From Fidelibacterota bacterium (GTDB lineage Bacteria; Fidelibacterota; UBA8477; JABMPR01), in assembly GCA_018673925.1 (NCBI GenBank), contig JABHBL010000072.1, forward strand, positions 1-64,000: a stretch of 64,000 nt of DNA, given 5' to 3'. Both the position numbers and the translations under genes were made by a program. Below are positions 6,155 through 54,690 of this stretch, in pieces (within the stretch, counting starts at the first letter, position 1; each line of letters begins with the position of its first letter). The notes beneath the pieces are model-generated. The model had not been told where the DNA came from and ran no database searches. It worked only from the letters and a program-made list of their open reading frames with translations.

Positions 6155-6196
6155 TTCTTCCCCTAAAATTGAATAGCATTGTTTATCATTAATCAA

Positions 6197-9514: not shown

Positions 9515-9575
9515 TCTAATTACCTCGAATCATAAAATTCATATTGACCAGAAATCTGAAGGAGCCATACATATT

Positions 9576-11279: not shown

Positions 11280-11296
11280 AATTAGGTCGTCCTCTA

Positions 11297-13243: not shown

Positions 13244-13334
13244 GTGCGAGACTCCTTCATTACTCATTTCTTAACGAAAACATATTTGATATATCTGTGA
13301 GGACATTTCAGGATTATTAAAAACTTTCAACATG

Positions 13335-14612: not shown

Positions 14613-14629
14613 TTTATTTTCAGGAAAGC

Positions 14630-15964
14630 TCAATTGTTGTAAAACTCATAGATAGATTTGAGTGAATCCAGGTTGGCTTGAGCAAGCGTTGAGAAATATT
14701 TCTGGATATCACTCGATCCCAGAGCAGGGGAAAGTGGATCAAGACTGTGGATTTTCCGGAGTACGTGGTAGGCTAAACGCGGACGCAGAATATCCCGTCC
14801 AGTTGACTCCGAAGCTTCTCTTCCACACACACCAAACCATTCTTCATTCATGTTATTTTGGCCAGGGGCAAAATCGCTGGAGTAGCCCCCATTGGACCAG
14901 GATGCTGTCGAATCATGGAAATCCAGTTTGTCATCAGGACCAGCCTTCCACCACCCATCTGTAAATTGAAAGGTAAGGCCGCCAATAGCATTGCCAATGT
15001 CGCCATTTCCGTGTGCTTGTTTATAAATTTCCTGCCAATTTTCCAGCAGGATAAGAGCTTGTGAATCCTGGTCTTCTCTTTGTTCCCTGGCATTGAAAGC
15101 ATCGGCCCCAAATTCAGTGAGCAGTAGAGGTATATTCAGCTTGTCATTTACGACCTGAAATAGGTCTTCAAATGAGGCTCCCCGATAACTGTTTGTTCCA
15201 AAAACATCTAAATTTTCAATTTCTTCATCTATGAGATCAATGAATTGGAGGTCTCCATTTGCTATGGCTACTGGTCGGTGATTGTCACGGATATGGATGA
15301 TCCTGATGGCTTCATTAAAAAGTGAATATAGGTCTCGGGCTTTCTGATGATGATTTTCACCAACTTCAGGCATATCACCTGTTTCAGCGGATTCCCAGAT
15401 TAACCCGTAGTTATTCTCGTTCCCTAAAAGCCACATGAGAACACCGGGCACATAACGAAATTGTTCTATTACTGAGACGACATCACTAAGGATTAATTCT
15501 CGGGTTAGAGGATCTCCATAATCCACATTGGCTACCCAGGTGTCATTGACGTCCATGCCATAGCGAGCAAAGAGATGGTTCAGGATAGTGAAAATACCAT
15601 ATGTTTCGTGGATATACTCCACCCAGCGAGGTGGCACTCCGGCATATTGGCGGATAGTGTTTACCCCCATGGCCTGTAAGGCGGTCATTTCCTCTTTTAG
15701 AACAGACTTGATAAATTCATCTGGTTGGTCCCACAGGCTGTATCTGTAATTCGTTCCGATGGGGAAGTAGTCCCAATTCATCCCATGGACAAAATAATCT
15801 GTACCATCTACCGTAAGCTTATGACCTGTGCTGTCAGAGACGACTTTTACATAGGCGACCTGGTCGCTTGTACAATGAGACAGGGAGAATCCGAGCATAA
15901 AAATCAAGCTGATAGCAAGTCCCTTCACTCCGGGATGAGTCAGCTTGTTATACTCTGAACGCAT
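14630..15964 (-). CDS. Clan GH-A glycoside hydrolase, lipoprotein
   Basis: The 444-aa product has a lipoprotein signal peptide (FSLSH-C31). It is a TIM-barrel enzyme with 'LLGNEN' (candidate acid/base Glu183) and 'LLTEFGAD' (candidate nucleophile Glu284). The barrel begins with 'FVHGMNWDYFPIG'. It resembles the catalytic core of GH2 without the flanking beta-sandwich domains; other compact clan GH-A glucanase families (for example GH158 or a GH5 subfamily) are possible. The start at 15964 follows GAGGAG; an earlier ATG at 15991 does not. It is the first gene of the locus, so it is the most directly exposed to the operator and promoter upstream. Confidence 0.8.
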   Translation of the reverse strand: MRSEYNKLTHPGVKGLAISLIFMLGFSLSHCTSDQVAYVKVVSDSTGHKLTVDGTDYFVHGMNWDYFPIGTNYRYSLWDQPDEFIKSVLKEEMTALQAMGVNTIRQYAGVPPRWVEYIHETYGIFTILNHLFARYGMDVNDTWVANVDYGDPLTRELILSDVVSVIEQFRYVPGVLMWLLGNENNYGLIWESAETGDMPEVGENHHQKARDLYSLFNEAIRIIHIRDNHRPVAIANGDLQFIDLIDEEIENLDVFGTNSYRGASFEDLFQVVNDKLNIPLLLTEFGADAFNAREQREDQDSQALILLENWQEIYKQAHGNGDIGNAIGGLTFQFTDGWWKAGPDDKLDFHDSTASWSNGGYSSDFAPGQNNMNEEWFGVCGREASESTGRDILRPRLAYHVLRKIHSLDPLSPALGSSDIQKYFSTLAQANLDSLKSIYEFYNN

Positions 15965-16003
15965 TAGGAACTCCTCAATTTGGGACATCATTTAATGCAA
16001 AAT

Positions 16004-23554: not shown

Positions 23555-26500
23555 CTAACGGAGGAGTGCAATTTTTAGAGAAGACATGAGCTCATTTTGA
23601 GATAAACGAACCACATACATCCCAGAACTACTGGCCATTCCATATTCATTGTTACCATCCCAAAAATACGTTCCTGTACTGCTACCCGATGAAATAATCC
23701 TCTCAGACCGAATCAAACGGCCTCGTAGGTCAAATACATCAATCTGAAATGCACCGATCTCAGGTACAGTATAGGGAATGCTAACTCGGGCATTGAAAGG
23801 GTTGGGGAAAGCCATCCCCAATCGAAAATCTGCAGGTCTGTGATGTTCTGTTATTGTAGAAGGATTGACAAATCGACTATTCTGCATACCAGGTGTCCCC
23901 AGATTGTCAGACACAGCCCAACTTGAGCGTAAACCGTTGTCCAGGGTGGGGTGAATCAGCTCCAGAGTTGGACCTTCACCATCAGGTTCTATTGGCCATG
24001 GGTCTTCGTCATCATAGCGAACACTATCGATGAGGATTTCATCAGAATTAAACAGTCGAATAAGCTCACCACCATTGCTAAAATTGAAATCCAAATCACC
24101 AACAATTCGAGAACTACCACCATGAATACTTCTAAAAGCCAGGGTGTCACTACTCACAATCAAGTAGGCTCCAGGTTGGAGAGATAAATCTGGCAAGACA
24201 AAAAGATTATCATCAGAATCATCGCTAATTGACCAACCTTCAAGATCGACACTCTCAAGCGTTCCGTTAAAAAGTTCGACCCAGTCCTTAGAATCATAAT
24301 CATTGAGAGAATTATAGTTGATCTCATTGATCACCAGGGCTCCATCCTCTGGAGATATGGGGACAAATACTGCTGTTAATTCGACATCTGAAAGCATACT
24401 TATCGTCAAATCTACATTGTCTACCAGTCTATTCTCCCAGTGTGAAAATTGATATCCAGGCAGGGCAATAGCGCGTACATCAAGGGGAACCGTTGAAAAG
24501 TAAGTGCCACTCCAGGGATAGCTTTCAGGGGTGATGGAATGTACTCGAACCAGACCACCATCTGCAGGCTCAACATTGACTTGAAGATCACTATCAGCAC
24601 CAAGGTTAAATTTGTTTCTAAAATGATTACGCATGTAATAGGGTCGATTCAAGGCAAAAATATTCATGATGGTTCCCTCATTATACCAGTTGGTAATGTT
24701 GATGTGATTCCAACGTGAAATATGATCTGGTAAAGCGGGTAACAGCCATTGTTGATGGAGAATGAGAGCTGCTTCAACTTCCCCATATTCGAATGGTTGA
24801 TTTAACAAGTCGCAAGCTGTCAGGATGAAATTTTGTCTAAAACCAGGATTCGTCAAAAATTTACGTAGGAGCAGGGTGGACCAGGGAGGGTTTGGCCATG
24901 CAGGTCCGTTTGGATCAGTGGCAAACTCCAGGGTATTTCTCATATAGTTGTTGTTACTCCAGATACTAAAACCAAAATCAGTATCATATAGTATCCAACG
25001 CCACTTTCCACCGGGAAGGCGAGAACGCCAAAACTTGATGTTATTTCCGGGCCAGTCCTGGTTGTCGTAGTAGATCTGAGCCAATTGATAATCAATAAAG
25101 TTATCAATATCTACTCGTTCTTCGATGTACTCAAAATTGAGGTCAGATGTGAGCGCATGTGAATTGACATAATCAATCAAATCTACATAATGATTGTTCT
25201 CGCCATGAACAACCTCGCTACCATCTATGGCCAATAAATCAATGTCATCAGTATCAAGATCGTGATGACTCGCTACAAAATGCTCATTGACCTTCTCTCG
25301 CAAATTGTAGACTCCCCAGTAGTCGCCATTAAAATAGACTTCAACTGGTTGGAAGGCTTGTTTGTCAATATCCCTCTCAGAAACCAGACCTGTCATAAAA
25401 CCATCCCGGTAGCCTGACATATTCCAATCGTTTCCTGAATTCCTGAGCACGATTGCCTCAAACTTGTCTAAGTCTATATCAGGAAAGAAGGTGAAATCGA
25501 ATTTGCTGGTCCCATAACGTCCTCGAGCAAAAAGCGAGATTGAGCGTTGTGGATTACCACGACTCCAACCTCCAAATATCTTTGCACCGGCAGAGGCAGA
25601 ATAACTCAGATCATCACCATCCTCAAAATATTCGAGATGAACCTGTCGCTCCCAGTCTTCCCAGAAATTTGCACCAAAATGTGGAAAAGATGGGGATGCA
25701 TTCGATCCCATGACATACATGCCAGAATCATTGTCAAAGAAAGCACCTGGTTCAAAAATGAGTGACAGTACGGGTAGATTAGGGTCCTCATTTAAAAAAT
25801 AGCTGAAAGATGATTGAGTGGGGTTTGTTCCGTCAGGCTCGCAGGTCATAACTCGAATCACCGTTGTTTGCGTAATAGAAAGAGGGGCAGAATAGGTTGC
25901 CGAACCCAGATTTGGCTTGGTGCCATCAAGCGTATACTTGTAGATCCTGCCTGCAGGAACAGTACCCATACTCAATGCAATACCAACATTGTAGAAACCT
26001 GGTTCAGGAGATAAGGTAGGTGGTTCGGCCAGTATGGTGAATCCTCCTACATTTGTCTCACCTGGTGTTGGAGGGTTGAAATAGTATAAGTCACCACTTG
26101 CATCAGGGTCTCTACCCCAACTGATATCAGGAGGTAACTGAGGTGTTCTAATTGAATCGAGACTCCCACCATCCGGACTGGTTAGCATGACCAGCTCACC
26201 ATCACTGCTAATTTTGAAATTGGTGTGGAATTGACTCTGATCAGGAGTGATTAAGAATTCAGGTAGTAAACCAGACCCACCTAGCTCTCCGACGCTGAGA
26301 AATGGGATGGCAGTTAGATCAGAAGAGCTGGTGCTGTGGTTATGCACCTCAACAGCAATAACATTATCACCCTCCTGAAATAATTCTCGAGGTATAAGCG
26401 TGTAGGGGAGATCGATGCCACCAGGGAGTGATGGTTCAGTATATGAGGCAGCAGGTGTGTTGTTATTCACAGCACTTCCAGGTGCACCCATATTTGCCCG

Positions 26501-27106
26501 AGAGAATTCAACTCCGTTCAGATAGGCGATGTATCCATCATCATAATCGATGTGAAAAAGTATCCCAGGTGTTGAGGATGTATCATCAATGGAAAAGGTG
26601 TTGCGCATATATACTGACATCGTAGTTGGGATTACTGTGTTGTCATCATTATCCCCGTAGCCAAATCCGCTGGGATCTTCCAGCCATTGGGATTCATTGA
26701 AATCCAAAGCATACCAATTGTAAGGTGGATTGGAAGTGCCAACAAAATAACGCCACAAATCGCCTTCATCGTACATCAAGGACCAACTGATATTCAAGCT
26801 TTGTCTATCCTTGTCTGACGCAAATATAATAGCGTGACTGCTGCCAGCTATCTGGCCAGTTTCAAATGTCCACTTATACGGATCACCAATATCATCAGAA
26901 AGACCATAACCCTGCAGGTCGATAGGTGATGTGGATGTATTGTAAAGCTCTATCCAGTCAGGCGTGTCACCATCTTCATCATTGAGACTTGCTTGATTTG
27001 AGGCCACGATCTCATTAAGCATCAAGGACTGACCCAGGAGTATGGAAGGTATAACTACTGCTAGGAAACTGATTGCTTTGGAAAATTCGTTTAGCAGATG
27101 CTTCAT
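23555..27106 (-). CDS. CotH-kinase-like surface protein with lamin-tail domains and T9SS-like tail
   Basis: The 1183-aa product has a signal peptide. Domains in order: lamin-tail domain ('LNEIVASNQASLNDEDGD', 'DWIELYN'); a beta-sandwich; a chitobiase-like C-terminal segment ('YTLDGTKPN'); a CotH module (about 440-760) with 'VYFNGDYWGVYNLREK' and 'RWILYDTDFGF', whose Asp residues are the kinase-like metal ligands; a second lamin-tail domain ('VINEINYNSLND'); and a T9SS-type tail ('AFPNPFNARVSI'). CotH proteins phosphorylate spore-coat proteins in Bacillus; in FCB bacteria their targets are unknown. It is transcribed with the GH3 gene 41 bp upstream. Only 6 bp separate its end from the convergent GH5 gene. 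Confidence 0.85.
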   Translation of the reverse strand: MKHLLNEFSKAISFLAVVIPSILLGQSLMLNEIVASNQASLNDEDGDTPDWIELYNTSTSPIDLQGYGLSDDIGDPYKWTFETGQIAGSSHAIIFASDKDRQSLNISWSLMYDEGDLWRYFVGTSNPPYNWYALDFNESQWLEDPSGFGYGDNDDNTVIPTTMSVYMRNTFSIDDTSSTPGILFHIDYDDGYIAYLNGVEFSRANMGAPGSAVNNNTPAASYTEPSLPGGIDLPYTLIPRELFQEGDNVIAVEVHNHSTSSSDLTAIPFLSVGELGGSGLLPEFLITPDQSQFHTNFKISSDGELVMLTSPDGGSLDSIRTPQLPPDISWGRDPDASGDLYYFNPPTPGETNVGGFTILAEPPTLSPEPGFYNVGIALSMGTVPAGRIYKYTLDGTKPNLGSATYSAPLSITQTTVIRVMTCEPDGTNPTQSSFSYFLNEDPNLPVLSLIFEPGAFFDNDSGMYVMGSNASPSFPHFGANFWEDWERQVHLEYFEDGDDLSYSASAGAKIFGGWSRGNPQRSISLFARGRYGTSKFDFTFFPDIDLDKFEAIVLRNSGNDWNMSGYRDGFMTGLVSERDIDKQAFQPVEVYFNGDYWGVYNLREKVNEHFVASHHDLDTDDIDLLAIDGSEVVHGENNHYVDLIDYVNSHALTSDLNFEYIEERVDIDNFIDYQLAQIYYDNQDWPGNNIKFWRSRLPGGKWRWILYDTDFGFSIWSNNNYMRNTLEFATDPNGPAWPNPPWSTLLLRKFLTNPGFRQNFILTACDLLNQPFEYGEVEAALILHQQWLLPALPDHISRWNHINITNWYNEGTIMNIFALNRPYYMRNHFRNKFNLGADSDLQVNVEPADGGLVRVHSITPESYPWSGTYFSTVPLDVRAIALPGYQFSHWENRLVDNVDLTISMLSDVELTAVFVPISPEDGALVINEINYNSLNDYDSKDWVELFNGTLESVDLEGWSISDDSDDNLFVLPDLSLQPGAYLIVSSDTLAFRSIHGGSSRIVGDLDFNFSNGGELIRLFNSDEILIDSVRYDDEDPWPIEPDGEGPTLELIHPTLDNGLRSSWAVSDNLGTPGMQNSRFVNPSTITEHHRPADFRLGMAFPNPFNARVSIPYTVPEIGAFQIDVFDLRGRLIRSERIISSGSSTGTYFWDGNNEYGMASSSGMYVVRLSQNELMSSLKIALLR

Positions 27107-27147: not shown

Positions 27148-28995
27148 CTAATAAGTCAATCCATATCCTACTGGAAAGAGAGGTGCATAGTTGCTATCAC
27201 CAACGTTAATTGGTATTTGACTCATGTCTGTGGGCCAGGTCACTGAAAGTTTCCCCGTGGGTGAGTAATCACCAAAAATCACATCGGTGATGCCGTTGCC
27301 TTCTGTTCCAGGCAACCAAGCGGCCAGAAAAGCATCAGCCTCTTCGATAATATCGGTGATAATAATGGGGCGTCCAGAGAGGAGTACCACCACCATAGGT
27401 TTTCCACTGGCCTTTACTGTGTTTATAACTTCAATATCTTCGTTCGATAAAACCAGATTATCCCTATCTCCATGCATTTCAGCATAGGGTGTTTCTCCAA
27501 CGACAACAATTACTGCATCAGCATTGGAAACAATAGTTCCATCAGGTGAGTGGACCACCTGGGTTGATGAAGAAACCATGGCTTGCACACCATCCAATAC
27601 AGTTGTACCGGGAGTAATATCACCCATGCCACCCTGCCATGAAATGGTCCAACCACCACATTGCATGCCAACATCATTGGCACCACGGCCTGCAACAACA
27701 ATAGTTGCAATATCTTTGGATAGGGGCAATACACTTTCATTCCTCAGCAAAACTACAGATTCCCGAACAGCTTGTCGAGCAACCGCTCGATGCTCTGATG
27801 ATCCGACGTGGGGGATGAGATTGCGATCATTATGATAGGGAGCATCCAGCAGACCCATACTCTTCTTCACATTCAATATTCTGGTTACAGCATCATCGAT
27901 GCGAGACATTTCTATTAAGCCTTCATTTGCGGCCTCTATCAGCTTGGTAATAAATTCTCTGTATGTATATCCATCTTTGCTTGTGTCACCCGGAACCATA
28001 ATCATATCTACACCTGCATTGATTGACTCCACGATGTCACTTTTATAATCACCAGGTAGCTCATCAATGCCTGCCCAGTCTGTGACGATAAAACCCTGAA
28101 ACCCAAGCTCACCTTTGAGTACATCTGTCATAAGATATTTTTGTCCATGAAGTTTTTCACCATTCCAGCTGTTATATGAAGCCATGATGGTTGCAGTGCC
28201 ACCTTGAATAGCTGCCTGGTAGGGTGGGAGATGGAGGGCTCGCAATTCGTCCTCTGAAATTTGAGCATCTCCACGGTCAATTTTCCCATTTTTGCCGGTT
28301 GTCCAAGTCGGAGCGCCATCTCCAATGTAGTGCTTCGTACAGGCCACGATGGCATCAGCATCACTAAGGGATGCTCCCTGATAACCTTCAACCTGAGCCT
28401 GTCCCAGGGCTGCTAAAAGAGCAGGATCTTCTCCATAGGACTCATAGGCACGTCCCCAGCGTTCGTCTCTTGAGTTAGCCACACATGGATCAAAAGTCCA
28501 ATTGATCCCGGTTGCACGGACTTCCTTGGCGGTGATATGGGCAATTTCTCTCACCAGTCCTGGATTACCTGTGGCGCCAAGGGCAATATTGTGTGGAAAA
28601 ATGGTAGCACCTACCACATTGCTGTGCCCATGGACTGCATCGATACCATACATGAGTGGGATTCCCAAACGAGACTTGGCAGCTAGATCCTGATAACGAT
28701 CCACCATGTCAGCCCAGGAGCTGGGATTATTTGTTTCAGGGGTTGATCCACCTCCACTAAGGAGTGATCCTAAATGCAAATTGGTAATATCAGCTTCATC
28801 AATTAGATAACGTCTATCAGCCTGAGTCATTTGTCCAACTTTTTCTGCCAGTGTCATCAACTCAACGATGTTCTCAACACTTTTCCCCGTCACTGATACA
28901 TGTTTTACAATCGGCTCGGTGGAGTTGCAGCTCACAACTAGTTGAAGCACTAATACAAGCACAAAACTTTTTAGAAATGTTGATCTCGTAAACAT
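27148..28995 (-). CDS. GH3 beta-glucosidase / exo-beta-glucanase lipoprotein
   Basis: The 615-aa product has a lipoprotein signal peptide (LVVS-C23). The GH3 barrel has 'MYGIDAVHGHSNV', 'KHYIGDG' and the nucleophile Asp306 in 'FIVTDWAG'. The C-terminal domain ends 'NVGDSNYAPLFPVGYGLTY', the ending shared with barley exo-beta-1,3/1,4-glucanase, which argues for a broad exo-glucanase or beta-glucosidase releasing glucose from oligoglucans in the periplasm. GAGGAG precedes the ATG. It is divergent from the sensory operon starting at 29370 and shares a 374-bp control region with it. Confidence 0.92.
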   Translation of the reverse strand: MFTRSTFLKSFVLVLVLQLVVSCNSTEPIVKHVSVTGKSVENIVELMTLAEKVGQMTQADRRYLIDEADITNLHLGSLLSGGGSTPETNNPSSWADMVDRYQDLAAKSRLGIPLMYGIDAVHGHSNVVGATIFPHNIALGATGNPGLVREIAHITAKEVRATGINWTFDPCVANSRDERWGRAYESYGEDPALLAALGQAQVEGYQGASLSDADAIVACTKHYIGDGAPTWTTGKNGKIDRGDAQISEDELRALHLPPYQAAIQGGTATIMASYNSWNGEKLHGQKYLMTDVLKGELGFQGFIVTDWAGIDELPGDYKSDIVESINAGVDMIMVPGDTSKDGYTYREFITKLIEAANEGLIEMSRIDDAVTRILNVKKSMGLLDAPYHNDRNLIPHVGSSEHRAVARQAVRESVVLLRNESVLPLSKDIATIVVAGRGANDVGMQCGGWTISWQGGMGDITPGTTVLDGVQAMVSSSTQVVHSPDGTIVSNADAVIVVVGETPYAEMHGDRDNLVLSNEDIEVINTVKASGKPMVVVLLSGRPIIITDIIEEADAFLAAWLPGTEGNGITDVIFGDYSPTGKLSVTWPTDMSQIPINVGDSNYAPLFPVGYGLTY

Positions 28996-29369
28996 GTTTA
29001 CTCCTCATATATTGATATCTAGATACAGAATTACTTCCTGACATCTAAGTAATCAAATTGAGTGCCACTACCGCATCCATTCTGAAACGAAGGTGATCTG
29101 TGAAATGAAACCAAAGGTGAATGAGTAGCCTTACACATTTAATGGTCATATACCTGATCAAAGGTTGTGGGGGGTAAGTATCTGTATTTATGCTGATAAC
29201 GCCATTCATTTGTTGCCAATGTGAATTGCAGATAGTTGAGATTGAATGAAAAAGAAACTCCTAGTTTGGGAAAATTATTTTCCCGTCAAAGCCAATACCT
29301 GAAATTCGTACTATTCAATAGTTAGGGCTTGTATTGTTTTAATATGCCAATTATTATCATTTCAATAAA
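28996..29369. promoter_or_regulatory. Divergent intergenic region with two palindromes
   Basis: This 374-bp region separates the GH3 gene (minus) and the solute-binding-protein sensory operon (plus). It has no open reading frame of note. It holds the 17-bp perfect palindrome GGGAAAATTATTTTCCC (29268-29284) and a 13-bp one, ACTATTCAATAGT (29310-29322), both just upstream of the sensory operon. These are candidate binding sites for the response regulator or another regulator. I looked for a sigma-54 -24/-12 element (GG-N10-GC) on both strands and found none convincing. Confidence 0.45.
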
Positions 29370-30716
29370 ATGAATGATAAGAAACTACAAAAAAACCAAC
29401 CTAAAAAACTCAGGTTAAAATCACTCTCCACGAGCCTGCCTTTCTTGTTCTCCATTGGGGCATTAATCTTCCTCATATCATTCTTAATATCATCATTTCC
29501 ACTGGGAACAAATCCCTTAAACACAGATGGGATTGAGAGAGTTTATTTTGCAGATAATATTGGTGTGGGTCACGCCGAAATTATTAGACAATTTAATGAA
29601 CTTCATAAGGGTGAAGTGGAAGTGGTTGCTATTGATTTACCCTTCTCAAAATTTAATACCAATCAACGAAAAGAACTGATAGCCAGGAACTTACGAAGCC
29701 GTAGCAGCAGAATTGATGTTTTCTCCGTCGATTTGATATGGGTTCCTCGATTTACAAAATGGGCTGAGCCATTAGCGCCATATTTTGCTCCTCAGTTTTT
29801 AAATAAATTGGTCCCTCAACCTCTCCAGACGTGCTATGTTGATGACATCCTTTATGCTGTCCCTCTCTATACAGATATAGGCGCTTTATATTACCGCAAA
29901 GATATGATCCTGGCACTACCAGATGGTGAGGCCATCGTGGACCGTATCAATCAATCCATTACCTGGGAGGAAATGTTAGAGCTCCGGGAATCATATTTCC
30001 CGGGAAAACCCACATTTATTCCCCAGGCTGTAGCCTATGAAGGGCTAATCTGTAATTTTAATGAAATAATAGGACAAACCCTTGAGGATGAAGTATCAGG
30101 GAAACTGATCAACCTGACGGATTCACTAATCATTGAGCGCACCCACTTCATGCGTGAAATGATCGTTACAAATTTTGCACCTATTGAAGCCTTGAGTATG
30201 ACTGAAGATGATTGTATCCGCTTTGCACTTGCTCACGATATTCCCTTCGTACGCGGATGGCCCACAATGAACAATGAGAATTATCAGCGTTTCGATCCAG
30301 TACTATTTGAAAAATTAGAAATAGCGCCCCTGCCACACTTTGAAGGGGGTGAATCGACACCTGTTTTTGGTGGATGGAATATGATGCTTTCCAAGCATTC
30401 ACCTGTCAAACGGGCAGCCATTGAGTTTATGAAATTTGCCTGCTCTATGGAAGGTCAACAAATATTTTATGAAAGTGAGGGTCTCCTGCCAATTCAGCGG
30501 GAGTTTTATAGTCGACCAGAATCAGGACCTCGTCAGCAAAGATTGCAGCTCATTCAAAAAATGATGCAAAAAGGGCTTCATAGACCTACACTGGATCAAT
30601 ATACGCTCATATCTGATATCCTTTCAACCAAGCTCCACCAAATATTGTCCGGGGAGATTGAGGTTGAAGCAGGTCTGACGATGGCGCAAGCTGAAATTGA
30701 TGGAATTTTAAAGTGA
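29370..30716 (+). CDS. Membrane-anchored extracellular solute-binding protein (sensor partner)
   Basis: The 448-aa product is a family-1 ABC-type solute-binding protein of the kind that binds sugars ('LIWVPRFTKWAEPLAPYF', 'YAVPLYTDIGALYYRKD', 'FGGWNMMLSKHSPVKRAAIEFMKF'). Unusually, a basic 25-residue cytoplasmic head is followed by an uncleavable-looking membrane anchor (about 26-46) rather than a signal peptidase site or lipobox. No ABC permease or ATPase gene is nearby. It overlaps the start of a histidine kinase gene (GTGA). The arrangement implies it reports ligand binding to the kinase instead of feeding a transporter. No strong Shine-Dalgarno precedes the ATG. Confidence 0.82.
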   Translation: MNDKKLQKNQPKKLRLKSLSTSLPFLFSIGALIFLISFLISSFPLGTNPLNTDGIERVYFADNIGVGHAEIIRQFNELHKGEVEVVAIDLPFSKFNTNQRKELIARNLRSRSSRIDVFSVDLIWVPRFTKWAEPLAPYFAPQFLNKLVPQPLQTCYVDDILYAVPLYTDIGALYYRKDMILALPDGEAIVDRINQSITWEEMLELRESYFPGKPTFIPQAVAYEGLICNFNEIIGQTLEDEVSGKLINLTDSLIIERTHFMREMIVTNFAPIEALSMTEDDCIRFALAHDIPFVRGWPTMNNENYQRFDPVLFEKLEIAPLPHFEGGESTPVFGGWNMMLSKHSPVKRAAIEFMKFACSMEGQQIFYESEGLLPIQREFYSRPESGPRQQRLQLIQKMMQKGLHRPTLDQYTLISDILSTKLHQILSGEIEVEAGLTMAQAEIDGILK

Positions 30717-32206
30717 GCAAGCCCTTTTTGAAACTTCCTAAAAAATTTGAGAGCTATCATTTTGAGATCCAACACATCCTGGTGTTGTTCATCGTGGTGG
30801 TTGTTTTCCAAACTGCACTTTCCTTCATTAATAGCCAGTCCACTCATCAGATTTTCCAACAGGCCATGGAATATTACCGACGCGATTCTGCAGAACGTGT
30901 TGCTGATCTGACTACGACTGCCCTGGAACTTCTCATTGAACATGGTCGAACAGATAATTCAACAAATGGAGAGAATCGACAGAGCGCTATTCAATCTTTT
31001 GATAAGTTACTGAGCCAGCAGATGCTACAACGGAATATTGATGAGGTCTATCTCCTGGTCAATCAGGGAGGACGGGTGGTTGCACTGAGAGATGGAGCAG
31101 AAATTTATGATCTCTATCTTGAACAAAGTTCCATCCTGATGATAGAGAATCAACCCGCCGCAGCAAACGCCATCCTCTACTACCACGAGCATTTTCAATC
31201 TTTGGTGGATCAAGAGCAAATTATCAGCTCGTTGGAAGGCAACAATACATTCCATGTATTGGTGCCATTCTATGATAAGGGTGAGATTTCTGGTGCAGCA
31301 TATATGAGGGTCACACCCGATGTGGCAGGATTTTTATCACTCATTGAATCAGCCTACAGCCAAAGTGGAGTATTATTCACAGGTCTTATCCTGGTTGGAT
31401 TCCTCGCCATGTTTTTCATATACTCTTATACTGCGCAAGAACGTGATGAAGTCCAACATCAATTGTTTGATCAGCGGTCAAAACAGCTTAGAGAACAAGT
31501 GGAACATCAGAAAGAATCCCTCTTTACTAAACGTATTTATCACACCCATCACAAAGCCGAAAAAGTTATGGGGTTTATTAAAGAGGATCTTAGGGGTCTG
31601 AAGGATAAAAACCTGGATGAAACCCGAAACCGAGTCACAAAATATGCAAATTTTGTTTCCCGGGTGATCTATGATATGAAAACCTATGATCCACCTCTTC
31701 ATGTCATTCGGAATCCCATTTTTCAGACCAATATCAATGAGGTGATTCAGTTTATCGTAGAGAACATATTTCAACGGGTATATAGGGTTAGCGAAAGCAA
31801 TGCGGTGAGTGTAGAGCTTGATTTTGCTGAGGAAATTCCCATCCTGCATATCAATGAGTATGTGGTTTGGGAGATCATCGAGCCCTTGATACAGAACGCC
31901 ATTGAGCACAATGTTGATCATAATCTCGTGATAAAGATCAAAACAAAATTTGATGAAGTGAACCAAAGACTCACGGTTGAGATATGTGATAATGGTAAAG
32001 GATTATCACCTGAATTGTTGAAAGTTGATAAGTATGGTCAGAAGGCCATATTTAAAGAGTCAGTGAGTACCAAGGAGGGAAGTCAGAGCTCTGGTTATGG
32101 TTGCTATCTGGCCTGGGAAATAAGCCGGAGATGTGATTGGGTAGTGGATGCACATAATAAAGCAGAAGGAGGCGCCTGCTTTACATTACAGGCTCCTACA
32201 GGATAA
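30713..32206 (+). CDS. Sensor histidine kinase
   Basis: The 497-aa product begins at a GTG overlapping the previous stop. TM1 (about 21-40) and TM2 (about 219-240) flank a periplasmic sensor of about 175 aa that resembles a Cache/PAS-like fold. A coiled coil follows, with no obvious HAMP domain. The dimerisation helix has a His cluster (HTHH, 277-280) that must supply the phospho-acceptor; it is not a textbook H-box. The ATPase domain has N box Asn396 ('IIEPLIQNAIEHN'), 'DNGKGLS' (427-433) and 'GYGCYLA' (462-468). It probably senses the bound state of the solute-binding protein encoded just upstream. Confidence 0.87.
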   Translation: MSKPFLKLPKKFESYHFEIQHILVLFIVVVVFQTALSFINSQSTHQIFQQAMEYYRRDSAERVADLTTTALELLIEHGRTDNSTNGENRQSAIQSFDKLLSQQMLQRNIDEVYLLVNQGGRVVALRDGAEIYDLYLEQSSILMIENQPAAANAILYYHEHFQSLVDQEQIISSLEGNNTFHVLVPFYDKGEISGAAYMRVTPDVAGFLSLIESAYSQSGVLFTGLILVGFLAMFFIYSYTAQERDEVQHQLFDQRSKQLREQVEHQKESLFTKRIYHTHHKAEKVMGFIKEDLRGLKDKNLDETRNRVTKYANFVSRVIYDMKTYDPPLHVIRNPIFQTNINEVIQFIVENIFQRVYRVSESNAVSVELDFAEEIPILHINEYVVWEIIEPLIQNAIEHNVDHNLVIKIKTKFDEVNQRLTVEICDNGKGLSPELLKVDKYGQKAIFKESVSTKEGSQSSGYGCYLAWEISRRCDWVVDAHNKAEGGACFTLQAPTG

Positions 32207-32209
32207 TAT

Positions 32210-33655
32210 ATGGAACTGGATCAAATTAAAGTACTCCTCATCGAAGATGAAGAGTTTGATGTACGCAGGATAAAAAATACCATCGCACCCCACCGGGAGA
32301 GAATCTGTATCCAGGAAATCGTATCCACTGGGGAGGATGCCATAGAGACCCTTGAGAAAAAAGGTCCCTATGATGTGGCCATTCTGGATTATCAGATATC
32401 GGGTGGATTGTATGGTGAAAGACTGATCAAACGCTTGAAAAAGGTCGATCCCAGTATTCAGATTATTGTCATCACCAAGATGACCATTAATCAGACTGAC
32501 CTGCATTTTGCCAATCAATTAATTGAGAGCGGTGCCTACTGGTTTGGAACAAAATATCCCTCCGATATTGAGGATTTTATCTATCAACCTACAGACTTTA
32601 TTCTGACAATCATGAATGCTGCAGAAAAAAAGCGGCTGGAACAAGAGCGCATGCGTTCTCAGAGTCGCCTGGATAAAAAGATCGCCCGAATTATTCAAGA
32701 AAGACCCATGCTTGGAGATTCCGAAAGCATTCTGAAGGTCAGGGAGCGTATCACCAAATATGCTGCTACCCATGCCAATGTGTTGGTTATTGGAGAGTCA
32801 GGTACGGGGAAGGAGTTGATTGCTAGAAATATTCACTATCAGAGTAGTCGACGCTATGAAAATTTTGTCACAGTCAACTGTGCTGCCATCCCCGATGAAC
32901 TGATTGAAAGTGAGCTGTTCGGATTCTTGAAGGGCGCTTTTACAGGAGCTAAAGAAGATAAAGCCGGGTTATTCGAACAGGCAAATAATGGAACCATATT
33001 CTTGGATGAAATATCTGAATTACCCTATCAAGCTCAGGCCAAACTCCTGCGTGTTCTGGAAACGGGTGAAATGGATAAAATTGGCCGTAAAAAGAGCCAT
33101 AATGTTGATGTACGAGTGATAGCTGCGACCAATAAAAACCTGAAGGAACGGATGAAAAAAAATCTATTCCGTGAGGATCTTTATTACCGTCTGAATATCC
33201 TCAATATCCAGGCACCTGCCTTGAAAGAGCGTAAAGAGGACATTCGGGTTCTTATTGACTATTTTGTAGGTCACCATTGTCGTGATTTGAGTATTGTACT
33301 GCCTGCCATCACAGATGGAGCCTGGAGTTTTTTGGAGCAATTCCATTGGCCAGGAAATGTTCGCCAATTGAAAAATGTGACGCAGAGACTGGTCATACTG
33401 AGTAATGATACTATTACCCTTGAAGTCGTGGAGCTTGCCATGGATGTACAGTCCCAGGATTCTGCTACTGGTATATCAAATCCAGTATTTTCAGCAGAGA
33501 ACATTATTCCTCTCAAAGATGTAGAACAAAACTTCCGCAAACAGTATTTTGAGTTTGTCCGAAAACACAGTCGCACGGATACGGAGGCTGCTGGAAAACT
33601 TGGTCTGGCTCCTCCAAATTTTCATCGTATGTGCAAAGAGCTTGGGCTTAAGTAA
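32210..33655 (+). CDS. NtrC-type sigma-54-dependent response regulator
   Basis: The 481-aa product has a receiver domain (1-125; acidic pocket near residues 12-14, phospho-acceptor Asp60 in 'VAILDYQ'). The AAA+ core has Walker A 'GESGTGKE' (195-202), the sigma-54 contact loop 'GAFTGA' (242-247) and Walker B 'TIFLDE' (262-267). A Fis-type helix-turn-helix ends the protein ('TDTEAAGKLGL'). It therefore activates transcription with RNA polymerase-sigma54. It is three bases from the kinase gene and precedes sugar-uptake genes, so the GH3 gene and the uptake cluster are plausible targets. Confidence 0.93.
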   Translation: MELDQIKVLLIEDEEFDVRRIKNTIAPHRERICIQEIVSTGEDAIETLEKKGPYDVAILDYQISGGLYGERLIKRLKKVDPSIQIIVITKMTINQTDLHFANQLIESGAYWFGTKYPSDIEDFIYQPTDFILTIMNAAEKKRLEQERMRSQSRLDKKIARIIQERPMLGDSESILKVRERITKYAATHANVLVIGESGTGKELIARNIHYQSSRRYENFVTVNCAAIPDELIESELFGFLKGAFTGAKEDKAGLFEQANNGTIFLDEISELPYQAQAKLLRVLETGEMDKIGRKKSHNVDVRVIAATNKNLKERMKKNLFREDLYYRLNILNIQAPALKERKEDIRVLIDYFVGHHCRDLSIVLPAITDGAWSFLEQFHWPGNVRQLKNVTQRLVILSNDTITLEVVELAMDVQSQDSATGISNPVFSAENIIPLKDVEQNFRKQYFEFVRKHSRTDTEAAGKLGLAPPNFHRMCKELGLK

Positions 33656-33979
33656 CGCTGATGACTTTTATCTTATAATTATTATTATAATAATATTATT
33701 ATTCCTATAATAAGTCATAACGATGATTCATAGTCATTAGATTTCCCGATTGAAAATTATTTTAAGATAATATTTCACAGAATATCATCTGGAATTGCAT
33801 TTGTAAACCCTTGTTATACAAACAACTTCCTCTCAACTATACTCATATTTAAAAGCGTTAATATTTATCTATCTCCCTGAACCCTAGACGATATGGCATG
33901 AGTGGTCTGGTATTTGACTTATATGATAGTACGTAATGAAAATTATTGATCAAATCATCAAATATTCTACAGGTTCTGC
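33656..33979. promoter_or_regulatory. AT-rich intergenic region with nested palindromes
   Basis: These 324 bp between the response-regulator and symporter genes encode nothing. The first 60 bp are nearly pure A/T, with a 16-bp perfect palindrome (33687-33702) nested inside outer arms ATGACTT (33661-33667) and AAGTCAT (33712-33718). This could be a terminator-like hairpin or a DNA-bending/binding site before the uptake operon. No clear sigma-54 element was found in the rest. Confidence 0.4.
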
Positions 33980-35587
33980 ATGAGCGGACTTGATTTCGCT
34001 GTCATCATCCTGTATTTCCTTCTGGTTGTTTCAGTTGGGTTCTACTTTTCCCGAAGAACCAATGACACCACTGAATATTTCCTGGCAGGTAGAAATGTTG
34101 GCTGGATTGCCATTGGTGCTTCTCTATTTGCTTCTAATATCTCAAGTGAACATTTCATTGGCCTGGCTGGTACAGGTTCTAGTAGTGGGCTGGCCGTAGG
34201 TCATTTTGAATGGCTGGCTGCCTTTATGGTTCTTTTTCTGGGTTGGATCTTTGTCCCATTCTATTTGAAGTCAGGTGTCTTCACCATGCCTGAATTTCTG
34301 GAAAGACGTTATGGTAAAGCCAGTCGCATGTATCTTACCTCTGTTTCCATCGTTGCCTATGTCATTACAAAAATCTCTGTGACCCTTTTTGCTGGTGGCT
34401 TGCTGTTGAACAAGATTCTTGGTTGGGACATGATGACCTCAGCTATTGTGCTGATCATTGTCACAGGTATTTATACTATTGCCGGTGGACTCAGTGCAGT
34501 TATCTATACTGAGCTTGTTCAAGCCTTTATTCTCATCGGTGGAGCCATTGCACTTACGCTTCTAGGTTTAAATGAGGTAGGGGGTTTCACAGGGCTCCAA
34601 GCCAAGCTGCCGCCTGAATATTTCCAAATGTTTAAAGCTTTTGATCATCCTGATTTTCCCTGGACCGGTATCATTTTTGGGGCTCCTATTTTGGGAGTTT
34701 GGTACTGGTGTACCGATCAGTTTATCGTCCAGCGTGTTTTAAGCGCAAAGAATATTAACCATGCCCGCTCAGGGGCCATCCTGGCGGGCTTCCTCAAAAT
34801 TCTGCCTGTATTTATCCTGGTCCTCCCTGGTCTGATTGCAGCTGCTCTTTTTGGGACCACAGGGGATGAAGCATATCCTACGCTGGTCACCAGCTATTTA
34901 TTGCCCTCAGGGATCAAGGGTATCGTCATCGCCAGTTTGCTGGCAGCATTGATGTCATCACTAGCAAGTGTCTTTAACAGTACCTCAACTTTATTCACCA
35001 TTGATTTTTATAAAAATTTCAGACCCGAGTCCTCTGAAGTTGAGCTGGTCTTGGTTGGTCGTCTAGCTACGGCAGTCATGGTCGTGCTAGGTGTTTTATC
35101 AGTTCCACTCATCACCATGTTGAGTGGTCAATTGTTCGTATATCTGCAAAGTGTCCAGGCCTACATCAGTCCTCCAATTGCTGCGGTATTCATCCTGGGC
35201 ATTTTCTGGACTCGGGCCAATTCACAGGGGGCCATTTCTGCTCTTGGAGTTGGTGCTGTTCTGGGAGCACTGCGATTTATACTCGAGATTATGGTGAAAT
35301 CTGGCACCTCTCTAGGAAGCTTTGAATGGTTTGCAACAATGAATTTTTTACATTTTGCTGTATTCCTGTTTGTTATTTCTGTAGGTGTGGTAGTGATTGT
35401 CAGCTTATCTACGGCTGCCCCCAATAAACAACGAATTTCAGGACTTACTTTGGCTACTGCATCTGAGATGCAAACAGATATGAGCCGACGTATGGATGAT
35501 CAGAACGCGAAATGGAATAGAATTAATGTCATAGCATCCGTTGTACTGGTGATCACCATTCTGGTACTTTGGATGAAATTTGCATGA
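33980..35587 (+). CDS. SSS-family sodium:sugar symporter (SGLT-like)
   Basis: The 535-aa product has about fourteen membrane segments. Family signatures include 'FFLAGRNVGW'-type 'TEYFLAGRNVGW', 'SNISSEHFIGLAG', 'GGLSAVIYTELVQAF' and 'WYWCTDQFIVQRVLSAKN', all matching the SGLT branch of solute:sodium symporters (vSGLT, human SGLT). These import glucose, galactose or related sugars with Na+. A Na+-coupled system suits a marine or saline organism. It lies between the sensory operon and the surface glycan-binding/TonB genes, so it probably imports the sugar freed by the encoded hydrolases. Confidence 0.92.
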   Translation: MSGLDFAVIILYFLLVVSVGFYFSRRTNDTTEYFLAGRNVGWIAIGASLFASNISSEHFIGLAGTGSSSGLAVGHFEWLAAFMVLFLGWIFVPFYLKSGVFTMPEFLERRYGKASRMYLTSVSIVAYVITKISVTLFAGGLLLNKILGWDMMTSAIVLIIVTGIYTIAGGLSAVIYTELVQAFILIGGAIALTLLGLNEVGGFTGLQAKLPPEYFQMFKAFDHPDFPWTGIIFGAPILGVWYWCTDQFIVQRVLSAKNINHARSGAILAGFLKILPVFILVLPGLIAAALFGTTGDEAYPTLVTSYLLPSGIKGIVIASLLAALMSSLASVFNSTSTLFTIDFYKNFRPESSEVELVLVGRLATAVMVVLGVLSVPLITMLSGQLFVYLQSVQAYISPPIAAVFILGIFWTRANSQGAISALGVGAVLGALRFILEIMVKSGTSLGSFEWFATMNFLHFAVFLFVISVGVVVIVSLSTAAPNKQRISGLTLATASEMQTDMSRRMDDQNAKWNRINVIASVVLVITILVLWMKFA

Positions 35588-39157: not shown

Positions 39158-42025
39158 ATGAATAAAATACTTACGACCCTGATTGCTATCCCACTTATCG
39201 TTTCGAGTTTATTTGCGCAGACCACTGGGAAAATTGCTGGAAAAATTAGAGATGCCGAAACTGAGGAATACATGATCGGTGTCAATGTTATCATTGAGGA
39301 AGCCGGTGTAGGAGCAGTTACTGACACTGAAGGATACTATGATATCATCAATTTGACACCTGGATCCTATACAGTCAAAGTCTCTATGATAGGTTATGAG
39401 GTCTATGTAGTTGAGGATGTTCGAGTTTCCACAAATCGGACAACCTATCTCGATGCCGATATCAACAGCAGCTTGCTGGAAGGTGCAACGGTATTCGTAA
39501 CGGCCAGCAAAATTTCAACAAAACGCGATCAGACAAGCACTGTAAAAAATATTTCGTCCGAGGACATGGAAATGTTGCCTGTTGAGAGCGTTGGTGCTGT
39601 AGTAGATATGCAAGCGGGAGTTGTTGCAGGACATTTCCGAGGCGGTCGTAGTGGAGAAGTAAGTTATCTCATAGATGGTATCCAAGTTGATGAAGTCTTT
39701 GGCGGAAATAGCGCAGCAGTAAGCATTGAAACAGAAGCTGTCCAGGACTTAGAGGTGATCACTGGTACATTTAATGCTGAATATGGGAATGCCATGAGCG
39801 GTATCGTGAATGCGGTTACCAAGAATGGGTCCGAAAAGTTTCATGCTAGTGCTTCTTCATCAATATCCACATATTTCACTTCCAATACATATGAGGACGA
39901 GGAAGATATCTTTTTAGGATTGGAGCCATTTGGCCTCACCGACAATAAGGAGGATCATTACCAATTAAATACAAACTACGATAATAAATTTATGCTCACC
40001 GGCCCCATACTGGGAGATCAGATTGGTTTTTTTATTAATTATCGTGAACAATCTACAGCTGGTCACTTGAACGGGATCAGGCGTTTTAATGTTTGGGATG
40101 TCAGCGACTATTCATCACCAGATTCCCTGGAGTGGATAGATGGCAATACAGGTGACAGTGCCTTTGTTTCAATGAGTTCAAGTAAACATTCTTCGTTGCT
40201 TGCAAAAATTTCTTTCAGACCTTCACCCAAACTCCGCTCCTCAATCATGTTTAATCGGAATGATGATGAGTGGATCGGGTATGACCACGGGAGCAAATAC
40301 AAACCCGATGGTAGAAGTAAAAATTATGGCAATTCTGATTTTATTGCCTTTCAATTGAATCACATGCTCAGCAACTCATTTTTTTATGATCTTAAGCTGA
40401 GTCAATCAGCAAACTATTATGGTAATTATCTTTATAAAGATCCCCAATCCTATACTATAGCTGATGAATTCAGCCAAATAAATGGACTATGGTATTTTGA
40501 GGGGGACACAGTATATAACTATATTCATGATACCTATGCTCAATCATATGGACCTGGATTCGCCTACGGAGGTCAGGATAAAGGTCATAATGAGCGCGAA
40601 ACGATTACACAAAATGTAAAGTTTGATTTGACCTGGCAGGTTAACAATGCTCATAGTTTGAAAACAGGATTTCAGATATCACAACATGATATCACCAGTT
40701 CCTACCATCTGATAAAAAATTTATATGCTGGCACAGTGAATGAGAATTATTATAAACCTGTTTTTGCATCAGAAAATACTGAACAAGCAGATAGCTACAA
40801 TAAACAGCCGCTTGATGGGTCGTTCTATATCCAGGACAAAATGGAATTTGATGAAATGGTTATCAATCTTGGTTTACGTTATGATTATTTTGATGCCAAC
40901 ACCGTTTACCCTTCACAAAGACGAAATCCCTCAAATTCCTCAACGTACTATGTGAATGATTCTTTGGGTGTCCCCATTAAGGTGTGGGATTCTGATTTGC
41001 AGGACAGTGTGAAGGTGTTAGATGAAGCAAGAATGTCAGCCTATCTTGATTCAAAATCAATTTATCAAATTAGTCCCCGCTTTGGGCTCGCTTATCAATT
41101 AGGAAACAGAGCGGTTTTACACTTTAGCTATGGTCACTTTTTCCAAATGCCATCATACTCAAATATTTATCAGAATGATGGGTTTTTTGTAGGCAGTGAT
41201 TTTGGGACCACCATGGGTAATGGTAACCTGGGTGGTGAAACGCTGGGATTAAATGCTCAAAGGACCGTTAGTTATGAAATTGGACTGTGGCAGGAACTGG
41301 CTGAAGGCATGGGGCTTGAAGTTAATCTCTACTATCGAGATATTTATGACTTATTAAGTGCTGCCGTTGTCACCACTTACAACCAGGTAAGCTACGGTTT
41401 GTATACTAACAAAGACTACGGTAATGTACGTGGTCTTGAGGTCAAGTTTGACTTCAATAAGGGTGGCTTTCGCACCAATGCAAATTATACCCTGCAATAC
41501 ACCAAGGGTAATGCCGACAATGCGCAGCAAACTTTTAATCGTGCCGGTAGCTCTATTGATGAAGTGAAGAAGATGATCACCATGAGCTGGGATCAGAGAC
41601 ATACCTTTAACTTGTCTGCAGGATATACAGCTTCAACTTATGGTGCATTTTTTACTGGATATGTTAATTCTGGGACGACATTTACATATTCACCACCGGA
41701 TGGTAGTGACCTTGTCAATATTGTTCTACCTGCAAATAACAGTCACAAGGCACTTGGTTTTCATGTTGACTTCACAGGATTCATGAAGCTTCCGGTGATG
41801 TTCGGAATCAATGCACGCTTGAACCTGTCTATTTATAATTTACTTGATCGCTACAATGCCTCTTACGTCAATGGTGCGACTGGCAGACCTTACTCAGGTA
41901 TTGTCAAAGATATTGATAGGGATGGTTTTCGCAGTTTATTTAACACCATTGAAGATGGCTATAAGAATCCTGGAATGTTTACTACACCTCGTGAAATAAA
42001 AATTGGTTTGGAAGTCGAGTTATAG
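39158..42025 (+). CDS. TonB-dependent outer-membrane receptor (SusC/CirA-like)
   Basis: The 955-aa product has a signal peptide (ending FAQ), then a carboxypeptidase-regulatory-like domain ('KIAGKIRDAETEEYMIGVNV', 'GYYDIINLTPGSYTVKVSMIGY'), a plug ('MLPVESVGAVVDMQAGVV', 'FRGGRSGEVSYLIDGIQVDE', 'NAEYGNAMSGIVNAVTKNG') and a 22-strand-type barrel ending 'REIKIGLEVEL'. It imports large substrates with TonB energy. No SusD-type lipoprotein gene accompanies it. The neighbours are two large secreted proteins and a PorV-like barrel. Oligoglucan uptake is inferred from the surrounding GH16 and GH5 genes. Confidence 0.92.
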   Translation: MNKILTTLIAIPLIVSSLFAQTTGKIAGKIRDAETEEYMIGVNVIIEEAGVGAVTDTEGYYDIINLTPGSYTVKVSMIGYEVYVVEDVRVSTNRTTYLDADINSSLLEGATVFVTASKISTKRDQTSTVKNISSEDMEMLPVESVGAVVDMQAGVVAGHFRGGRSGEVSYLIDGIQVDEVFGGNSAAVSIETEAVQDLEVITGTFNAEYGNAMSGIVNAVTKNGSEKFHASASSSISTYFTSNTYEDEEDIFLGLEPFGLTDNKEDHYQLNTNYDNKFMLTGPILGDQIGFFINYREQSTAGHLNGIRRFNVWDVSDYSSPDSLEWIDGNTGDSAFVSMSSSKHSSLLAKISFRPSPKLRSSIMFNRNDDEWIGYDHGSKYKPDGRSKNYGNSDFIAFQLNHMLSNSFFYDLKLSQSANYYGNYLYKDPQSYTIADEFSQINGLWYFEGDTVYNYIHDTYAQSYGPGFAYGGQDKGHNERETITQNVKFDLTWQVNNAHSLKTGFQISQHDITSSYHLIKNLYAGTVNENYYKPVFASENTEQADSYNKQPLDGSFYIQDKMEFDEMVINLGLRYDYFDANTVYPSQRRNPSNSSTYYVNDSLGVPIKVWDSDLQDSVKVLDEARMSAYLDSKSIYQISPRFGLAYQLGNRAVLHFSYGHFFQMPSYSNIYQNDGFFVGSDFGTTMGNGNLGGETLGLNAQRTVSYEIGLWQELAEGMGLEVNLYYRDIYDLLSAAVVTTYNQVSYGLYTNKDYGNVRGLEVKFDFNKGGFRTNANYTLQYTKGNADNAQQTFNRAGSSIDEVKKMITMSWDQRHTFNLSAGYTASTYGAFFTGYVNSGTTFTYSPPDGSDLVNIVLPANNSHKALGFHVDFTGFMKLPVMFGINARLNLSIYNLLDRYNASYVNGATGRPYSGIVKDIDRDGFRSLFNTIEDGYKNPGMFTTPREIKIGLEVEL

Positions 42026-53902: not shown

Positions 53903-53911
53903 GTTTTAACT

Positions 53912-54679: not shown

Positions 54680-54690
54680 AAAGAGAAAGT

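Follow-up and report, generated by a model that had tools for sequence, protein, structure and literature searches.

INTRODUCTION

In the LuxP-LuxQ-LuxU-LuxO and TorT-TorS systems, a sensor kinase is partnered by a dedicated solute-binding protein (SBP). A like partnership is predicted for the gene triad described here, in which an SBP, a sensor histidine kinase, and an NtrC-type response regulator are encoded side by side in the draft genome of a Fidelibacterota bacterium (assembly GCA_018673925.1; 3.41 Mb, 90% complete; G000 below). The stretch analyzed, referred to as the window, comprises the first 64,000 nucleotides (nt) of contig JABHBL010000072.1 (C105 below). Unlike the triad, LuxP-LuxQ and TorT-TorS use hybrid kinases with a phosphorelay, SBPs of other families, and other ligands; LuxO is a sigma-54 activator, and sigma-54 is not known to be involved in XylFII-LytS. 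In the polysaccharide utilization loci of Bacteroidetes, hybrid two-component systems (HTCS) and SusR switch on glycan uptake genes by sensing oligosaccharides in the periplasm, but these are one-protein sensors, with a periplasmic propeller and an AraC-type output in HTCS, and they are not known to employ an SBP or sigma-54. To our knowledge, glycan sensing in marine and subsurface bacteria of the Fibrobacteres-Chlorobi-Bacteroidetes (FCB) group other than Bacteroides is largely open.

CuaD-CuaS-CuaR of Ruminiclostridium cellulolyticum likewise joins a dedicated sugar SBP to a membrane kinase and a regulator that controls sugar-uptake genes, and transport is there served by a different SBP (PMC10384115). 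CuaD is a predicted lipoprotein, whereas the triad SBP has a transmembrane (TM) anchor and a lipobox in none of 92 sequences; CuaS contains HAMP and its extracytosolic part is longer, whereas the window kinase has no HAMP match; and CuaDSR targets an ABC importer, whereas the triad has a sigma-54 regulator, SSS and TonB neighbors, and a distribution in FCB phyla (PMC10384115). XylFII-LytS is a sugar SBP docked on the periplasmic domain of its kinase, but that domain is a four-helix bundle, in contrast to the Cache-like domain modeled for the triad kinase (PMC9769921, PMC10384115). The triad thus has neither the lipoprotein SBP, the HAMP domain, nor the four-helix-bundle sensor of these systems. 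AioX-AioS-AioR and ArxXSR also combine an SBP, a kinase, and an AAA+ regulator upstream of an RpoN promoter, and LuxP and TorT are also named there (PMC5908839). As judged from sequence, the triad shares with AioXSR the AAA+ regulator with an RpoN promoter and an upstream site. AioX, however, is a PhnD-like SBP for arsenite, whereas the triad SBP belongs to SBP_bac_1 and is not of the PhnD type; moreover, AioXSR occurs mainly in Proteobacteria and controls arsenic enzymes rather than glycan genes (PMC5908839).

An initial annotation, made from the window alone, had considered this arrangement apparently undescribed. The SBP three-component principle is already known from CuaDSR and AioXSR, in that AioXSR leads from an SBP to sigma-54 in response to arsenite (PMC5908839) and CuaDSR provides a sugar version (PMC10384115). 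For the FCB family itself, no published description was found, although subscription papers were largely beyond reach and this absence is not proof; in the main text of a sigma-54 survey, the words Calditrich, Ignavibacter, and Marinimicrob are absent (PMC12316311). What sets the triad apart is the combination of a TM-tethered sugar SBP, a HAMP-less kinase, a sigma-54 output, an SSS/TonB glycan setting, and its occurrence in FCB phyla. To go by its sequences, the triad is a real and widely conserved system of SBP-kinase three-component signaling with a sigma-54 output and a readable cis-code, and it is quite probably a dedicated sugar-sensing system that switches local glycan-uptake genes through sigma-54.

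RESULTS

Conservation of the triad

The three open reading frames (ORFs) lie on one strand and encode 448, 497, and 481 amino acids (aa) (Table 1). They overlap or abut, as the initial annotation had it, with 4 nt shared by the SBP and kinase frames (the kinase starts with GTG at 30713) and 3 nt separating the kinase from the regulator. The order GH3 gene (divergent), SBP, kinase, regulator, SSS symporter is kept in the 13 regions fetched from the genus, as far as the contigs reach. Farther from the triad, TonB and surface genes are less well kept, and relatives of the TonB receptor within the genus are 49 to 91% identical, below the conservation of the triad.

Kinase orthologs of at least 65% identity occur in 14 of 20 family genomes, the source genome counted, and a profile search across 245 genomes of the phylum detected kinases of the triad type in 35, one of them as a C-terminal piece only. 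A scan of the genomes of 84,980 species returned 127 kinase relatives, 80 of which were kept; these derive from Neomarinimicrobiota, Calditrichota, KSB1, Kryptoniota, and Ignavibacteria/Melioribacteraceae, with many records titled "Bacteroidetes" and one titled Deltaproteobacteria. Together, the window and the loci fetched from the genus, the phylum (20 of the 25 non-genus rows of the profile search), and the cross-species scan amount to 95 distinct kinase loci.

All three genes are present in 87 of these 95 loci and across phyla, so that the lack of conservation named beforehand as a refutation did not materialize. In seven of the eight incomplete loci, no more than 343 nt lie between the kinase and the contig end on the side where a gene is missing. 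The SBP gene lies directly upstream of the kinase in 92 loci, including three (L124, L125, and L143) counted by hand after an automatic spacing limit had missed their SBP, and the remaining three are cut by contig ends. As in other SBP-dependent three-component systems, an SBP gene therefore adjoins those of a kinase and a response regulator as a conserved unit. An apparent SBP-kinase fusion in L143 was rejected as an artifact of ORF calling.

The members of the triad also covary. Across 82 triads, pairwise distances correlate between SBP and kinase (r = 0.89), kinase and regulator (r = 0.92), and SBP and regulator (r = 0.87), against a permutation maximum of 0.09, and the correlations are 0.79 to 0.90 in the 70 triads from outside the genus. 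Part of this correlation is due to shared descent.

A probably membrane-tethered binding protein

The SBP matches SBP_bac_1 (E = 1e-13), and its nearest solved relatives are a trehalose/maltose-binding protein (1eu8; the best, at E = 1.6e-45 with a profile) and MalE3 (6dtq). Ten residues (R100, D121, D169, E224, G225, W297, G334, G335, W336, and R405) are the same in all 82 SBPs aligned, and all ten face the same letter in 1eu8 in the profile alignment. Some of these are presumably sugar contacts, and the set is sugar-site-like in sequence; candidate ligands are laminaribiose, gentiobiose, cellobiose, and glucose.

The N-terminal anchor that had been claimed for the SBP is evident as a single hydrophobic stretch at residues 23 to 41, behind a K-rich start of 22 residues and with no lipobox. 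A hydrophobic N-terminal 19-mer of mean hydropathy above 1.6 recurs in 89 of 92 SBPs, and the three SBPs without it are ORFs cut by the end of a contig or of the fetched stretch. Because this stretch is so widespread, whereas a lipobox occurs in 0 of the 92 and even a loose AxA motif in only 12, the SBP most likely carries an uncleaved signal anchor. Such a TM tether is unusual, since SBPs of Gram-negative bacteria are described as diffusible (PMC11113362).

The family of this SBP comprises ABC sugar receptors, and the genome holds a MalF/MalG-type pair, which raises the alternative that the SBP serves an ABC importer encoded elsewhere and owes its operon position to regulatory convenience. 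The apparent anchor, set against the diffusible SBPs just cited, argues against this, as does the pair itself: the MalF/MalG-like proteins, on contig C26, have their own SBP domain fused to MalF. Moreover, BPD_transp_1 permeases are absent from contig C105, with nine matches elsewhere in the genome. Around the 95 loci (median flanks of 9.2 and 9.5 kb, many shorter), a search with 18 permeases plus a MalF, and then with the C26 MalF/MalG and a MalK, placed sugar permease genes near a single locus, L177, where they stand beside a fragment of another SBP. The triad thus also withstood the second refutation named beforehand, a co-occurring ABC permease/ATPase pair that uses the SBP. L177 was the sole match to MalF/MalG, and on visual inspection four further weak matches in the permease search looked like ABC ATPases or unrelated proteins, not sugar permeases. 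The initial annotation's statement that no ABC transporter accompanies the SBP is borne out in that no cognate permease or ATPase is linked to it, and we consider a role as importer receptor highly improbable. The C26 fusion (L209:5677-7959), a 760-aa protein with SBP_bac_1/8 and BPD_transp_1 domains encoded beside a MalG-like permease and an alpha-amylase, unites an ABC receptor with the channel that it serves.

The sensor kinase

The window kinase matches HATPase_c (E = 4e-11) and gave no Pfam match to HisKA or HAMP, in agreement with its annotation as a kinase lacking HAMP and having an atypical His cluster. This cluster is an HxHHKAEK stretch; its residues H277, H279, H280, K281, A282, E283, and K284, together with M286 beyond it, are shared by all 93 kinases compared. 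The kinase of L043, with a stop in its alignment, was left out of alignment A1. The motif HKAEKVM was one of the two seeds of the cross-species scan; the phylum loci found by profile are included in the count and agree. Among 55 kinases searched against Pfam, all 55 contain HATPase_c, and no HisKA-type or DHp family is present among the 25 families listed of 45. The H280-K281 run may loosely recall HWE/HisKA_2.

For an AlphaFold2 (AF2) model of the cytoplasmic part (pLDDT 88.1, pTM 0.82), Foldseek returned DHp-CA structures, ZraS and YycG/WalK among them (best E = 1.6e-11; TMt up to 0.83). The model of the periplasmic part (pLDDT 83.2, pTM 0.80) is nearest to the extracellular domain of WalK and to Cache-type sensors, with modest scores (E = 8e-4, TMt 0.59), and Pfam dCache_1 is weak (E = 0.006) and found in 2 of the 55 kinases. 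The modeled sensor domain is thus Cache-like.

Folds of this kind, WalK and Cache domains, are able to bind either small ligands or partner proteins, and CuaSR seems weakly responsive without CuaD (PMC10384115). The kinase could accordingly sense a ligand of its own, with the SBP as a mere scavenger or co-receptor that concentrates sugar, in which case the true system would have two components. We regard this as unlikely, given that the SBP gene is directly upstream of the kinase wherever contigs allow (92 of 95 loci, with the other three cut by contig ends) and that the SBP covaries with the kinase, is anchored, and has no linked transporter to serve.

The regulator and its predicted operators and promoters

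The annotation of the regulator as an NtrC-type sigma-54 activator holds: it matches Sigma54_activat (E = 2e-70) and has a receiver domain (Response_reg, E = 6e-10). In 82 of 82 regulators, D60, T89, and K115 of the receiver are invariant, as are the core residues of Walker A and B and, in the GAFTGA loop, G242, F244, G246, and A247. Position 243 of the loop is A in 58 and S in 24 of the 82 sequences, and T245 is kept in 81, with one change from T to S. The C-terminal helix-turn-helix (HTH)-like end is also conserved. These AAA+ features, with the GAFTGA loop and both Walker motifs, are those of bacterial enhancer-binding proteins, and the gene for sigma-54 is present on contig C38 of the same genome.

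Alignment of the two intergenic regions from the 13 genus loci yielded a footprint in which TTATTATCATTTCAATAA is conserved directly before the SBP start and two AT palindromes are conserved after the regulator stop. The TGGY-N7-TTG promoter form before the GH3 gene, on the minus strand, is present in all 13 loci (shuffles: mean, 2.7; maximum, 6). Distances between palindrome and promoter are nearly fixed in the genus, at 291 to 304 nt for GH3 and 222 to 228 nt for the symporter (from operator 1), and the predicted operator-promoter pairs of the window point at the divergent GH3 gene on one side and the symporter operon on the other. The sequence TTATTATNNNNNNAATAA occurs at just two sites in the 3.4-Mb genome, operator 2 and 29351-29368 (a reversed control gave one forward and one reverse). 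The operator beside the SBP start is a predicted enhancer of the divergent GH3 promoter and may also serve autoregulation.

Beyond the genus, 40 of 70 loci contain the palindrome TTATYANNNTRATAA in the 500 nt that follow the regulator (shuffles: mean, 1.8; maximum, 5), and 23 of 77 contain it ahead of the SBP (shuffles: mean, 0.95; maximum, 3). The TGGY-N7-TTG form, a looser version chosen after the genus footprint, is found on the sense strand in 38 of the 70 loci and on the antisense strand in 4 (shuffles: mean, 13; maximum, 21). With the genus included, 59 of 83 loci have a palindrome with at most one mismatch, 39 have a pair of palindromes 19 to 24 nt apart, and 49 hold both palindrome and promoter. 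The first palindrome precedes the first promoter in 49 of these 49 loci (joint probability, 0.0008), an order that is less striking because uniform placing already predicts 43.4. The genus footprint is independent support for palindrome and promoter, and their predicted layout is as expected for an enhancer-binding activator.

Many of the palindromes lie close behind a stop codon and are AT-rich, and their genome-wide count is at chance level, as would be the case if they were transcription terminators or ordinary AT-rich repeats rather than operators. Against this reading stand their occurrence upstream of the SBP in 23 of the 77 non-genus loci and before GH128 and GH81 promoters and their pairing at 19 to 24 nt in 39 of 83 loci; stems of 6 A+T base pairs would also make weak terminators. 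We therefore find this explanation decidedly unlikely and retain the operator assignment.

Putative target genes

The SSS and TonB neighbors noted in the initial annotation are both present in the window. Among 42 non-genus loci of at least 15 kb, an SSS homolog is near the triad in 30, in contrast to 0 of 20 arbitrary 20-kb control regions; genes of glycoside hydrolase (GH) type are near it in 29 of 42 versus 3 of 20, and TonB receptors in 15 of 42 versus 2 of 20. All 20 control regions are from the phylum of the window, whereas the 42 loci span phyla.

Outside the locus, a palindrome and a promoter 149 to 158 nt apart precede GH128 genes in two genomes (L220 in G000 and L254 in G009) and a GH81 gene in a third (L252 in G008). 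GH128 is present in 12 of the 20 family genomes, all 12 of which also hold the triad. Because the pairs outside the locus precede GH128 and GH81 and because GH128 is confined to triad holders, our best guess at the sensed glycan is beta-1,3-glucan for the genus, and glycans in general for the family. In G000, L220 also contains a receiver fused to a metallo-beta-lactamase-fold domain (5202-6434), divergent from the GH128 gene.

A proposed model for sensing and switching

In the mechanism that we propose, the tethered SBP would bind a glucose-containing oligosaccharide derived from a glycan (beta-glucan in the genus) in the periplasm and, rather than feed an ABC transporter, would act on the kinase beside it in the membrane by way of that protein's Cache-like domain. 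The kinase, with no HAMP and an unusual HxHHKAEK dimerization helix, would then phosphorylate D60 of the regulator, which would bind TTATYANNNTRATAA palindromes that lie upstream of -24/-12-like promoters and often form pairs with a spacing of some two helical turns. From there, the regulator would activate sigma-54 polymerase at the divergent GH3 gene, at the symporter/TonB operon, and, in a few genomes, at GH128 and GH81 glucanase genes as well. The sequences themselves display the linked genes, the anchor segment, the intact catalytic and contact residues, and the layout of operators and promoters, from which the ligand, the contact of SBP and kinase, phosphotransfer, DNA binding, and use of the promoters are inferred.

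Several observations weigh against this mechanism. Contact between SBP and kinase is presumed in it, and a ligand could be bound by the Cache-like domain directly; within the kinase, H277, H279, and H280 are all candidate phosphoacceptors. One locus, L112 (3056-7559), lacks a regulator next to its SBP and kinase although the contig leaves 3.0 kb for one, reflecting either true loss or a misassembled contig of a metagenome-assembled genome. Exact palindromes are missing within 500 nt after the regulator in 30 of the 70 non-genus loci, and the 70 loci that served to define the 15-mer are also those in which it was counted. In L174, the record of Stygiobacter electus, the 500 nt behind the regulator likewise showed no palindrome. 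As for the -24/-12 promoters that the initial annotation proposed to look for, conserved predicted sites do precede the symporter and GH3 genes, but the symporter promoter deviates from the consensus in both elements, and strict forms of the consensus occur in the window at chance level (2 versus 2.07 expected; 8 versus 7.72). GH128 was rejected as a constant target, since only 4 of 11 upstream regions have the palindrome-promoter pair (two GH128 gene fragments of G003 were excluded). A large regulon was likewise rejected, as exact palindromes number 67 in the 20 genomes versus 68 in a reversed control, and any regulon is therefore small.

Of those 67 palindromes, 13 sit at the triad. Twenty-one of the 54 outside it were inspected, and six have an outward promoter-like site within 320 nt; three of the six are before glucanase genes, one is inside an ORF, and two have no gene identified behind them. 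In G000, the locus itself accounts for one of the four exact palindromes, and another precedes GH128; the remaining two fall within ORFs and are probably chance occurrences.

We lean, by a modest degree, toward the broader view that the triads constitute an undescribed FCB receptor family outside the classical Bacteroidetes, in which the tethered SBP and the kinase, with HxHHKAEK as a new kind of dimerization helix, would form a split inner-membrane receptor, the regulator would read one conserved palindrome, and the whole would act as a general on-switch of SSS/TonB glycan loci, as HTCS and SusR do in Bacteroides. Since the gene triad, the predicted operator, and the predicted promoters are all given, targets can be proposed from reading DNA, and these are open to gel-shift assays. 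In addition, the tethered SBP and its Cache-type kinase are a naturally occurring pair with which to study how a binding protein drives a kinase.

Other features of the window

TABLE 1 Positions of the triad, its neighbors, and predicted regulatory sites in the window
Feature	Positions	Strand	Basis
GH3 beta-glucosidase, divergent putative target	27148..28995	-	Pfam; kept beside triad in genus
Predicted sigma-54 -24/-12 promoter of GH3 gene, TGGCACTCAATTTGAT	29052..29067	-	TGGY-N7-TTG in 13/13 genus loci
Predicted regulator operator beside SBP start	29354..29368	+	One mismatch to TTATYANNNTRATAA; 15-mer identical in 13/13 genus loci
SBP, membrane-tethered, SBP_bac_1, trehalose/maltose-binding-protein type	29370..30716	+	Pfam, solved relatives, anchor, invariant residues
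Sensor histidine kinase: TM, Cache-like periplasmic domain, TM, DHp, HATPase; no HAMP	30713..32206	+	Pfam, alignment, AF2, Foldseek
NtrC-type response regulator: receiver, AAA+ with GAFTGA loop, C-terminal HTH-like end	32210..33655	+	Pfam, alignment
Predicted regulator operator 1, palindrome TTATTATTATAATAA	33679..33693	+	Exact match; conserved block after regulator stop
Predicted regulator operator 2, TTATTATTCCTATAATAA	33696..33713	+	Its 15-mer (33699-33713) spaced 20 nt from operator 1
Predicted sigma-54 promoter of symporter operon, TGGTCTGGTATTTGAC	33903..33918	+	TGGTCT...TTG 16-mer in 13/13 genus loci
SSS Na+/solute symporter, first gene of putative target operon	33980..35587	+	Pfam
TonB-dependent receptor, downstream of symporter	39158..42025	+	

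The GH3 gene is adjoined by a gene for a 1,183-aa protein with CotH kinase and lamin-tail domains (23555-27106), a relative of which is present there in 7 of the 13 genus regions. At 52856-55374, a trio encoding an unknown protein, a VTC-domain protein, and a DUF4956 protein stands beside beta-glucanase genes; triads of other families have these three genes nearby as well (L081, L084, L086, and L096). In L112, a methyltransferase-like frame, recognized by eye, follows the kinase.

A second cluster of glucan type occupies 5054-15991 on the minus strand. No operator palindrome with at most one mismatch occurs in this cluster. It encodes GH30, a GH2-like protein, an MFS_2 sugar transporter, a GH17-like protein below the cutoff, and, at 13335-14633, a regulator of the NagC/ROK type.

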